Source: Saccoglossus kowalevskii
Taxonomy: Eukaryota > Hemichordata > Enteropneusta > Harrimaniidae
DNA length: 24,400 nt
Assembly: GCF_000003605.2 (NCBI RefSeq)
Contig: NW_003149268.1
Coordinates: 4,273-28,672 of the forward strand
Direction of reading: 5' to 3'
The notes under the pieces are model-generated. The model was not told where the DNA came from. It ran no database searches and worked only from the letters and a program-made list of their open reading frames with translations. Below, one piece after another: positions 4,279 through 18,962 of this stretch. A program made the position numbers and the translations under genes. How positions within the stretch are numbered: the first letter of the stretch is position 1; each line of letters opens with the position of its first letter.

Positions 4279-4284
4279 TTTATT
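4279..4284 (-). other. AATAAA polyadenylation signal overlapping the stop codon
   Basis: Reading minus, the last codons run CAA TAA AG, so the stop TAA lies within AATAAA. If this signal is used, the 3' UTR would be only about 10-30 nt. I saw no other perfect AATAAA in the next ~80 nt on this strand. Confidence 0.5.
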
Positions 4285-4422
4285 GACAAACTTTATAACC
4301 CAGATATTTTGAATATTTACACTTGCGTTTGTAAGGACACCCACTGTTCGTAGTGCATGGTCCCAATGGGGAGCATTCGTTGTTTGGTTTCATACACACC
4401 TCGTGTTCATTCCAACATCGGG
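4280..4422 (-). CDS. Exon 3 of the cysteine-rich gene: second cysteine cluster and stop
   Basis: 143 nt after acceptor CTTTCTCACTACCAG. Its first two bases complete an Ala codon begun in exon 2, then 46 codons lead to TAA at 4282-4280. It carries seven cysteines (RCWNEHEVC ... NECSPLGPC ... GYKVCQ) and a basic patch KRKCKYSK. The stop codon lies inside a polyadenylation hexamer. Confidence 0.78.
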
Positions 4423-5286
4423 CTGGTAGTGAGAAAGTTAGAAGAAAACAGGAGATCAGTTATTTCAAACAAAATAATGTTCTCAAATTGAGTCCCTATA
4501 AAAATAAAGGCGCTGTCTAAGTTGCATTCTACGCAAGGCATAGAAACTTAAATAGTTCAAATTTTAAATAATTAAAGTTGTATTCACAATTTGCATTCTG
4601 TGAGGGAGCCTTTCGAGCTAAGTTAGATTTGTGAATAACAGAGACTCACTGAGTTAGGACACTGTTTGTATTTGGGTCAGTTACATTGTACGTTGGTATC
4701 TTGGTATAAACAACCTTCAGATTGTTCTAGAAGTAATGTTTAACATGTTTGCAAAGTATGGATAGAACCTTTAATGTTTCAGTATACGATTGCTGAGATA
4801 TGTTGTATCACAAATGTACGCTCATTCCTTTTCCTATTTACCTCCAATTGAACATGGTGAGTTCTTTGGATAACATACCAACCCGTGAACGCAGTTTTCA
4901 TCGTCATCGCAACGTTTTTCATTTCCATTACCACAGAATTTGTACTGGAAAACAAAATAAAATATACTTTCAACAAATTGCGATTTTTATGAGTAGTCAC
5001 AATTTATTCACATAGCGATGTACTGTAAAAATCGTGACTAAAGCCAGTAAAGTTGGTTTAAAGGGCGGTGATCGTCGACGGTGATCGCCGCGTGTTCGAA
5101 TTTCACTTAAAAAAAACGTTCTGTACGTCGCTACGAGTCCCATGCCGAACATGAGGCTGCGCGACGACCACAGCCTTTTAAATGACACAATATACATACC
5201 CACGTTTCATGTCCTAGGCCGTTGACTTTGGAATTGACACACGTAGTTACAATTAATAGAATATATATCAAGTTAGTCGACATCAT
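4280..5286 (-). CDS. Three-exon gene for a small secreted 12-cysteine protein
   Basis: Spliced gene: exons 5286-5200, 4944-4842 and 4422-4280, introns of 255 and 419 bp. Both introns are GT-AG (donors GTATGT and GTAAAT; acceptors TTTTCCAG and CACTACCAG after pyrimidine tracts). Phases match (0, then 1), giving 110 codons and a stop. Residues 1-18 look like a signal peptide (MMSTN, then a hydrophobic LIYILLIVTTCV core), with cleavage likely near VNS. The mature part has 12 cysteines, with 7,5,5,6,5,6,6,5,5,5,10 residues between successive ones, enough for six disulfides. The segment CDDDENC-x5-C recalls the C..D..C..G..C pattern of small disulfide-rich folds such as Dickkopf, prokineticin or EB modules, but I cannot assign a family. 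It is probably extracellular (peptide factor, inhibitor or defence peptide; this is inference). There are two adjacent start ATGs (5286 and 5283). No TATA box is evident. The gene appears intact, unlike every mobile gene nearby. Confidence 0.8.
4842..4944 (-). CDS. Exon 2 of the cysteine-rich gene: first cysteine cluster
   Basis: 103 nt after acceptor TTTTGTTTTCCAG and before donor GTAAAT. It starts YKFCGNGNEKRC and ends CYPKNSPCSIG plus one base (phase 1). It carries five cysteines and an acidic stretch DDDEN. A different reading frame across the same bases is also open and could mislead an ORF caller. Confidence 0.78.
5053..5110 (+). repeat. Possible tRNA-derived SINE head in intron 1 of the cysteine-rich gene
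   Basis: TGGTTTAAAGG at 5054-5064 fits a pol III A box (TRGYNNARNGG). GTTCGAATT at 5094-5102 resembles a B box core about 40 nt downstream, roughly tRNA spacing. A short A-run follows (5108-5116). There is no clean cloverleaf, and a direct repeat CGGTGATCG fills the middle. It lies antisense to the host gene. A chance match remains possible. Confidence 0.25.
5150..5182 (+). repeat. Dispersed motif, partial copy 2, in intron 1 of the cysteine-rich gene
   Basis: GAGGCTGCGCGACGACCAC followed by AGCCTTTTAAA matches the right half of the motif (compare 7556-7585). Confidence 0.45.
5200..5286 (-). CDS. Exon 1 of the cysteine-rich gene: signal peptide
   Basis: Twenty-nine codons from ATGATG to ACG TGG, followed by donor GTATGT at 5199. 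It encodes the start, the hydrophobic core and the first residues of the mature chain (ending GHETW). The exon ends in phase 0, matching exon 2. The 5' UTR is undefined and could itself be spliced. Confidence 0.75.
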
Positions 5287-12421: not shown

Positions 12422-13885
12422 TTAAGCCAGCGCCTGTACGATAGCAGTGCACAGGTCAATGTATAGTTCGACAGCTTGATATGCATCTGTTGGGACATCT
12501 CTGTTGATTTCCATCATAATTATACAACACAATTCTATAATATATCTTCGTCACAAGGATATGCGCCTTTAAACGTACACTCCTCTTTACATGCAAAGAT
12601 TTCGGTTACCGACACAGGCAAGGAGTAATCTTCAGCTCCAAATAGTTGTGGACAACTAAAAAGCATAATCGGCCAACCATTCGGAACAATTTGGTTGCGT
12701 GTTGGACGCATCCTATGTGCGTTCCATACTGAAATAACCTCGTCCAACTCTTCCTGGAAAATAGTTAAAGACGGTATACCATAAGTATAGTCGTAACATT
12801 ACAACACAAGTAAATTGATTTGATATAAATTGATATATTCACGATTAGGGCGAATTGACATGATTTTGTTATGGTGATTTACCACTGAAAATGCGGTAAA
12901 AACACTAAATGTTAAAAGAACTTAATTAATTTAATATTAGCTAACTCATAAAAATGAATTAACAAAGCACATTGGTTAAGAAAGTCGACATAAAATGTGG
13001 AAGTTGGTGGTGAGTTTCAAAATCACATTACAATATAAATTATTCAAGGCTACTGTAGTTATATTTTAATACCCTAAGTGTTCATTCTTAATATTTAGTT
13101 TTCGTACCTGAATCATTGCAGTAAAACAGAAACGTATCAAATTTTTATCCAATGCAGTACCATCAAAATAGACATCATCTTTAATTTTCTGAAAAATATT
13201 CATCTAGAATTGACAGTTTTCTCTTCTCAATATTCCCCACCAGGATTCAATTCTCTGATTAGTTGGACTTGTTCCATATAAAAAAACTTATAAAAACTTC
13301 TGAAATTATTCTACGTGGCCGTTCTCGGTCCCGAAATGTTCACTCACGATCTTAGGGAATGCTTGATTATTTTTGACTGCTGTAATGTAGTAACTTGCTA
13401 TGACTTTGGGGTCACTATTAGTTCGAAATGCTTCTAACCACATTATGTTACGAGAGTATCCATCGATTGCACCGTTTATACAAATTCCGTATGATTTTAG
13501 CTTGTCGTAGACATCTATATGCCATACGAAATTTGGCCCAAATGAACGATATGCTCGTCTACGTATTCGATGTCTTGAACGCAGTGCTACGCCTTCGGGA
13601 TCCAAGTCTTTAATGATGCGTCTTACAGTCTCTCGAGTTGTACTAATCCCATGTTGAATGCAGACTAGATGCATCCAGGAAGTTGACCTGATCCACCTAA
13701 CTGTTGTTCAATAAACAACCCAACAACATCATCATCATCATAAGTTCTAATCTTGCGACGAAAAAATTCTAACTTAGCTAAAATACGTCTCACACTAATA
13801 TCATAGTTGTGATATGATGCTAGAATGAAACATATCTCCATATAGTGTAAACCAAGGATGAAATAACGGTCTATCAGCTGTTCCC
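12422..13885 (-). pseudogene. Decayed integrase-like gene 1 (rva_4-type DDE core), two exons
   Basis: Order on minus: N-terminal helical part from 13885 (EQLIDRYFILGLHYMEIC; SGQLPG at about 13690), DDE core 13674-13108, intron 13107-12754 (GTACGA...TTTTCCAG, phase 0), C-terminal exon 12753-12422 (WNAHRMRPTRN, PQLFGAEDY, then PTDAYQAVELYIDL and TAA). The motifs WHID (13515-13513), CINGAIDGYSR and RIESWW (Glu at 13248-13246) are typical of the eukaryotic rve-like integrase family. Damage: a frameshift at about 13665-13682; in-frame stops at 13306, 13288 and 13204; a deletion before LYGTSPTNQ; a frameshift at about 12537. The second catalytic Asp before GTEN is His (CAT, 13338-13336). The family is linked to transposons and to domesticated copies; this copy cannot make a working enzyme. 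Confidence in identity is high; the exact 5' end is unknown because a satellite begins there. Confidence 0.85.
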
Positions 13886-14452
13886 ACGAAATAGAAAGTC
13901 GTGGCCACGATCGAGATACAAAGTTGCGACCACGAGATAGTAAGTCGTGGCCATGAGATAGTAAGTCGTGCCCACGAAATAGTAAGTCGTGACCATGAGA
14001 TAGTAAGTCGTGCCCACGAGATAGTAAGTCGTGCCCACGAGATAGTGAGTCGTGCCCACGAGATAAAAAATCGTGGCCACGAAATAGAAAGTCGTGGCCA
14101 CGATCGAGATACAAAGTTGTGACCACGAGATAGTAAGTCGTGGTCATGAGATAGTAAGTCGTGCCCACGAAATAGTAAGTCGTGACCATGAGATAGTAAG
14201 TCGTGCCCACGAGATAGTAAGTCGTGCCCACGAGATAGTGAGTCGTGCCCACGAGATAAAAAATCGTGGCCACGAAATAGAAAGTCGTGGCCACGATCGA
14301 GATACAAAGTCGTGCCCACGAAATAGTAAGTCGTGCCCACGAGATAGTGAGTCGTGCCCACGAGATAAAAAATCGTGGCCACGATCGAGATACAAAGTTG
14401 TGACCACGAGATAGTAAGTCGTAACCACGAGATAATAAGTCGTGGCAACGAG
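13881..14452. repeat. Satellite-like array: 21-bp palindromic units in a 193-bp higher-order repeat
   Basis: The basic unit is TCGTGSCCACGA (a perfect palindrome when S is G with its partner) plus GATAGTAAG, 21 bp. A variant linker TCGAGATACAAAG occurs at 13911, 14104, 14297 and 14384, i.e. intervals 193, 193 and 87, so eight 21-bp units plus one 25-bp unit form the higher-order period. The last period is shortened. Because 21 is a multiple of 3, several frames stay open on both strands (HEIVSRG on plus, SRGHDL on minus); these are not proteins. The left edge touches the integrase-like pseudogene. Confidence 0.92.
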
Positions 14453-17750: not shown

Positions 17751-18962
17751 TCGGAATTCCGCTAGAGGCCGTTCCCAAAGTACCCGGATGACAGCCCGTT
17801 CAACGTTCGTGGTGGGTAGAAATTCGAGCGGCGTCTGCTGTACCCGTTCCTGTTGCCGAATCATGGAGATTCAAATGGTCAAATATTCACTAAAACTACT
17901 TGCGAAATCTCAACACAGACTGATTTGACTGGAGAACAGATTGAACACTTAAATAAAAGGGCAAACGACTATGCTATATTAAAAACAAAGTTAGATAATA
18001 AGGACACTTTGAGGCGTTAACTTGTACTGGAGAAAGTTTTTGAATCTGACAAATCGGTTTGTTTACCAAATCGTAAAACTTTGGATGGATTTTTTTTAAG
18101 ATTTTAGATGACAGAGAAACAAATTTGAAATACTGGAGTGGCAGTCAAAGCGCCAGTAATAAAAACTATCAAAACAAGGGTGGTAAGAAAAAGCCTGCGC
18201 CCAAAAGAAAATTAAGTAGATATGATGAATATATTTTAACATTGATGCGACTACGATTGGGGTTGATGTCTGTATTTTTGGGTGATTTGTTTGGCATTTC
18301 TTCTACCAGTGTTTCACAAATATTTACAACATGGATAACATATATGGCAACCATATTTCAATGTTTACCATGGCCAAGTCGACAACAAATCGACAAACAC
18401 ATGCCTCTATCATTCAAACTTTTCTATCCTAAAACTAGATGCATTATAGATTGTACAGAGCTTTTTTATACAGAAGCCTGCTACACTTACTGCACAAGTT
18501 GTAACTAACAGAACATATAAATCACATAATACATACAAATGTCTTGTTGGTATTAGTCCAGACGGGGCATTCACTTTTGTTTCAAAACTGTGGGGAGGTA
18601 ATGTTTCAGATAGATTTATTACGGTAAATAGCGGATTCCTAAAACTTGTTGAACCGGGTGATATAATCATGGCCGATAGGGGATTCAATATTCAGGGATT
18701 GCTTCTTGAACGTAGAGCAAAGTTAGTTATTCCTCCATTCACTCGAAAATGCAGCTCGGGGAAGCGATTAAACGCAAACGAAATTCTTGGAGCAAGGAGA
18801 ATAGCAAGACTTAGAATTCATGTAAAAAGGGCAATAGAACACATCACAAACTTTCAGATGTTATCTCATGTTCTCCCACTGTCTATGAAATCAGTGGCAA
18901 ACCAAATGGTAATAGTTGCAGCAGGAATTTGTAATTTTTTGCCACCCCTAGTGAAAAAATGA
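17751..18962 (+). pseudogene. Dead DDE transposase, PIF/ISL2EU type
   Basis: Order: GC-rich N-terminal remnant (KYPDDSPFNVRGG, TAG at 17817, then KFERRLLYPFLLPNHGD), coiled region from TDLTGEQIEHLNK, helix-turn-helix (LSRYDEYILTLMRLRLGL, then ISSTSVSQIFTTWI), and a DDE core of DDE_Tnp_4 type: IIDCTE (Asp at 18449-18451), LVGISPDGAFTFVS, MADRGFNIQ (Asp at 18675-18677), LRIHVKRAIEHI, ending before TGA at 18962. The transposase would cut and join element ends. Damage: stops at 17817 and 18018; frameshifts in T-runs at 18090-18097 and 18462-18467; and Lys (AAA, 18825-18827) where the family has the catalytic Glu in HVERAI. An AATAAA follows at 19037-19042. It is convergent with the YqaJ-like gene. 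Family identity is confident; the N-terminal extent is not. Confidence 0.85.

Follow-up and report, generated by a model that had tools for sequence, protein, structure and literature searches.

Does the minus strand of this 24,400-nucleotide stretch of Saccoglossus kowalevskii DNA (contig NW_003149268.1; hereafter the window) carry a genuine gene between 5286 and 4280, and if so, what kind of protein would it encode? A preliminary description had proposed here a hidden three-exon gene for a secreted protein with 12 cysteines. We consider it very probable that the gene is a real protein-coding one whose product has the corresponding chemistry, as indicated jointly by the reading frame, the splice sites, the leader, the 12-cysteine ladder and the identity with a protein at NCBI. 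The exon coordinates, GT-AG splice sites, phases and cysteine ladder of the three-exon model could be reproduced exactly to the base, giving a coding sequence of 333 nucleotides including the stop codon (110 amino acids), which starts with ATG ATG and continues into a hydrophobic leader. Exon order, strand, phase and splice sites add to the support provided by the cysteine ladder. The gene is arranged as follows:

5286-5200, minus strand: exon 1, with the ATG at 5286 and the signal-peptide-like leader, ending in phase 0
5199-4945, minus strand: intron 1, 255 nucleotides, phase 0, GT-AG, GTATGT...TTTTCCAG
4944-4842, minus strand: exon 2, which encodes the first five cysteines of the mature protein and with them a C-x5-C-x5-C module
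4841-4423, minus strand: intron 2, 419 nucleotides, phase 1, GT-AG, GTAAAT...CTACCAG
4422-4280, minus strand: exon 3, with cysteines 6-12 and the stop codon, which ends at 4280
4279-4284, minus strand: an AATAAA hexamer that shares letters with the stop codon and may act as a poly(A) signal

The main and independent support for the gene comes from an identical NCBI protein of 110 amino acids rather than from ladder statistics. Some 5.8 billion proteins were searched by a method that relies on shared five-residue words and that distant relatives would escape, and this protein was the sole candidate. It is named uncharacterized protein LOC144362806 [Saccoglossus kowalevskii], from an enteropneust hemichordate; the identity extends across all 110 residues without a difference, the name is silent on function, and LOC144362806 did not appear in the literature searched. 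Because the same spliced product is already part of the NCBI annotation, the gene is not hidden, and the idea that it had gone unnoticed must be abandoned. A protein search of its own genome (572 Mb in 4830 contigs, E values up to 10) revealed no paralogue, all three matches being the gene's own three exons, and no further copy was found in the first 138,672 bases of its contig. At the sensitivity used, it is apparently a single-copy orphan gene. The earlier suggestion of a possibly undescribed family would be more aptly worded as an undescribed orphan, since a single member was found, with no paralogue in the genome and only itself in the protein search.

How rare is such a ladder of cysteines? 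When spacings of 4-10 were allowed, the gene's own two cysteine-rich frames proved to be the two longest ladders of the window (8 and 5 cysteines); the count of 8 in the exon 3 frame takes in one cysteine on the intron side of the splice acceptor, and exon 3 proper has 7. In 200 dinucleotide shuffles, a ladder of 5 was seen in 0.36 segments per shuffle on average, one of 6 in 0.04 and one of 7 in 0.005, while no ladder of 8 occurred. The exon 3 ladder is therefore rare, whereas the exon 2 ladder by itself is not. Under looser limits (3-12), the window yielded a further ladder of 7 at 466-612 on the plus strand and one of 5 at 18860-18771 on the minus strand, and the neighbouring stretches yielded six ladders of 5, spread over five of the 12 stretches.

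The predicted protein contains 13 cysteines, 12 of which follow the leader with a spacing of 7-5-5-6-5-6-6-5-5-5-10. The smallest spacing is thus 5 residues, no cysteines are adjacent, and one residue follows the last. The leader reaches an 11-residue mean hydropathy of 2.66, and, judged from this signal-peptide-like segment, the protein is probably secreted; with 12 further cysteines in the spliced frame, the proposal of a secreted 12-cysteine protein holds at that strength. Many regularly spaced cysteines in even number, here 12 after the leader, are characteristic of the secreted cystine-dense kind. Cleavage near residue 19 would yield a mature protein of some 91 residues (roughly 10.3 kDa, calculated isoelectric point 8.5), which might fold around six disulfides. 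Because exon 2 contributes five cysteines and exon 3 seven, at least one bridge would have to join both parts if all of them pair intramolecularly. A single-sequence model of exon 3 alone predicts two beta-hairpins (mean predicted local distance difference test score 78.4, best of five models). None of the 15 Foldseek rows obtained with this model was significant. Going by their titles, we take 10 of the 15 to be small disulfide-rich peptides or proteins, namely nawaprin, Magi4, JzTx-34, sfPAFB, robustoxin, 6atu, Tbo-IT2, hanatoxin and beta-defensin 1 (twice).

The earlier impression that the cysteine pattern has no nameable family is borne out by profile searches of Pfam and NCBIfam and by comparison with the PDB, none of which gave anything above cut-off. 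For the whole protein, Pfam returned only DUF7672 (E = 0.066, residues 8-39, below cut-off), NCBIfam returned no match, and no PDB row had an E value under 0.79. On these comparisons the protein does not appear to be a member of any named family.

What could such a protein do? Considering the few residues, the many cysteines and the lack of a match to an enzyme family, its most likely mode of action is binding: as a rigid, cystine-dense and non-enzymatic protein, it would attach itself to a microbial surface or to another protein outside the cell. The best explanation overall, which we believe somewhat more readily than we doubt, is a real, apparently single-copy gene for a secreted cystine-dense binding protein. 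Its single likeliest role, though one that we hold to be less probable than not, would be in defence or at a mucus surface, as a protease inhibitor or an antimicrobial; it is put forward tentatively, by analogy with this kind of protein. Ranking such a role first and modulation of extracellular signalling second is a guess, made in both cases from the kind of protein.

The alternative that survives best, though we regard it as unlikely, is a diverged extracellular signalling modulator, in which exon 2 would supply a Dickkopf-like core for contact with a receptor or ligand, in the manner of Dickkopf and draxin. A 41-residue piece matches Dickkopf_N (PF04706) along 18 residues, which lie in exon 2 (E = 0.11, 13.2 bits against a cut-off of 25), and exon 2 matches a draxin PDB chain at E = 1.8; Dickkopf_N gave no match when the whole protein was the query. 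According to the printed alignments, a core of the type C-x-x-D-x-x-C-x-x-G-x-x-C is common to exon 2 and the matched PDB chains; Dickkopf proteins have the same core type. The N-terminal Dickkopf region (PF04706) likewise has a C-x5-C-x5-C core, with D and G placed similarly as in exon 2. Two other stretches of the same genome are also relevant to this reading. In one (L024, 1465-1686, plus strand), a frame with two C-x5-C-x5-C modules, a tandem-module fragment just above the cut-off of DUF7107 (PF23416), includes a module identical to our protein at 8 of 13 residues (single-comparison E = 6e-4). In the other (L025, 1444-2705, plus strand), which by its likeness we take to be a Dickkopf-3-like gene, two cysteine-rich frames found via a below-cut-off DUF7107 match gave weaker single comparisons (E = 0.024 and 0.018).

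Compared with seven reference cores, the exon 2 core scored above cysteine-fixed permutations (p = 0.00065), a value that is biased because all seven were reached, directly or through DUF7107, from our protein's own hits; when each reference core was left out in turn and scored itself, these cores reached only p = 0.001 to 0.28. Several further observations speak against a signalling modulator: every Pfam and PDB match lies below any cut-off, the exon 3 core does not score above permutations against the reference cores (p = 0.30), the exon 2 and exon 3 cores have no detectable likeness to each other (p = 0.42), and core motifs of the C-x5-C-x5-C type are short and occur widely. Exon 2 may contain a cystine module of a common type.

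We find it less probable still that the protein represents a hemichordate-only fold, that is, a 12-cysteine domain born in this lineage, its exon 3 part forming two hairpins, which would serve a dedicated extracellular role, for example as a mucus or pharyngeal effector, and be absent from other phyla. It is very improbable that the gene model has no product at all, being instead a ladder arisen by chance or a gene in decay amid transposon remains, annotated yet unexpressed. A homologue was found neither in the own genome nor outside it, and transposon pieces do occur in the window, as this reading would expect; however, the three exons with canonical splice sites in phase, the leader, the AATAAA at the stop codon and an exon 3 ladder beyond the shuffles all argue against it, as does the NCBI annotation of the same protein. 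A neuroparsin-like neurohormone is the least credible of all: neuroparsins are secreted and have 12 cysteines, and Neuroparsin (PF07327) was the sole Pfam family returned when exon 2 was searched by itself (E = 0.12), but its 13.3 bits fall short of the cut-off of 23.5 and concern exon 2 only, the whole protein gives no such match, and the close C-x-C-x-x-C clusters of neuroparsins are absent here, where even the nearest cysteines are separated by 5 residues.

With the secreted binding protein as our preferred reading, we turn to its surroundings. The Pfam scan covered 16 stretches of open frame in the window (6 + 10, some of them overlapping), and its hits above cut-off were confined to the rva_4, HTH_Tnp_4 and DDE_Tnp_4 pieces; together with the repeat found in intron 1 the features are:

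5182-5057, minus strand: foldback repeat resembling a miniature inverted-repeat transposable element (MITE) in intron 1, with TTTAAA at both ends and complementary GC-rich arms
18077-18959, plus strand: transposase pieces HTH_Tnp_4 (E = 7.5e-12) and DDE_Tnp_4 (E = 2.6e-36), on two frames that overlap, above the Pfam cut-off
13306-13674, minus strand: rva_4 integrase-core piece (Pfam E = 8.4e-13), above cut-off
12538-12798, minus strand: weak rve_2 piece (Pfam E = 0.13), below cut-off

The MITE-like element was scored in at least 39 other places of the genome and aligned with seven other copies, and its ends suggest a TTAA target site. The transposase and integrase pieces agree with the portrayal of this gene as the only apparently intact one among dead transposons; the window fits one intact gene amid transposon debris as far as the 16 scanned stretches go. 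A tandem array with a 21-nucleotide unit and a 193-nucleotide higher-order period occupies 13883-14452. Three open frames at 21024-19212 on the minus strand have no Pfam match above cut-off, and they resemble what we take to be a SWIM zinc finger and YqaJ-like protein. This is probably a decayed gene, since the stretch between its open frames lacks a continuous frame.

Echinoderms and hemichordates are sister phyla, and secreted proteins restricted to a taxon may underlie lineage traits such as hemichordate mucus, chemical defence and the filter pharynx. Animal genomes commonly contain orphan secreted proteins rich in cysteine, and the interest of this one is therefore modest. It looks like an already annotated, apparently single-copy orphan of an ordinary sort; for now it amounts to a single annotated gene of a frequent kind, in no conflict with existing knowledge. 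Being small, secreted and apparently single-copy, such an orphan also makes a tractable test object.

How, finally, does the protein compare with known systems? Two aprataxin-and-PNK-like factor chains of the PDB matched exon 2 alone (E = 0.021 and 0.051) and were discounted, because no single stretch passes (best i-Evalue 20). The whey acidic protein domain has an adjacent pair of cysteines within its four-disulfide core; it was rejected as well, our protein having no adjacent cysteines and the nawaprin row a Foldseek E value of 3.7. The EB module (PF01683) matched the exon 2 part when the mature protein was the query (E = 2, 9 bits against a cut-off of 24.3), and the trait in common is that of a cysteine-rich extracellular module. 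DUF7107, cysteine-rich like our protein, matched the exon 3 part (E = 0.57 to 1.7; 9.5, 9.9 and 11 bits on three pieces against 24.6). The top PDB row for the whole protein was the Ascaris carboxypeptidase A inhibitor (3fju chain B; E = 0.79, 13.2 bits, not significant), which has in common with our protein the 5-5-6 cysteine spacing of the first module. In inhibitors of the Ascaris type, a free C-terminal tail beyond the last cysteine enters the enzyme, whereas here a single residue follows that cysteine. Although every match is below threshold, the first cysteine module resembles the modules of Dickkopf-like proteins, draxin and the Ascaris carboxypeptidase inhibitors.
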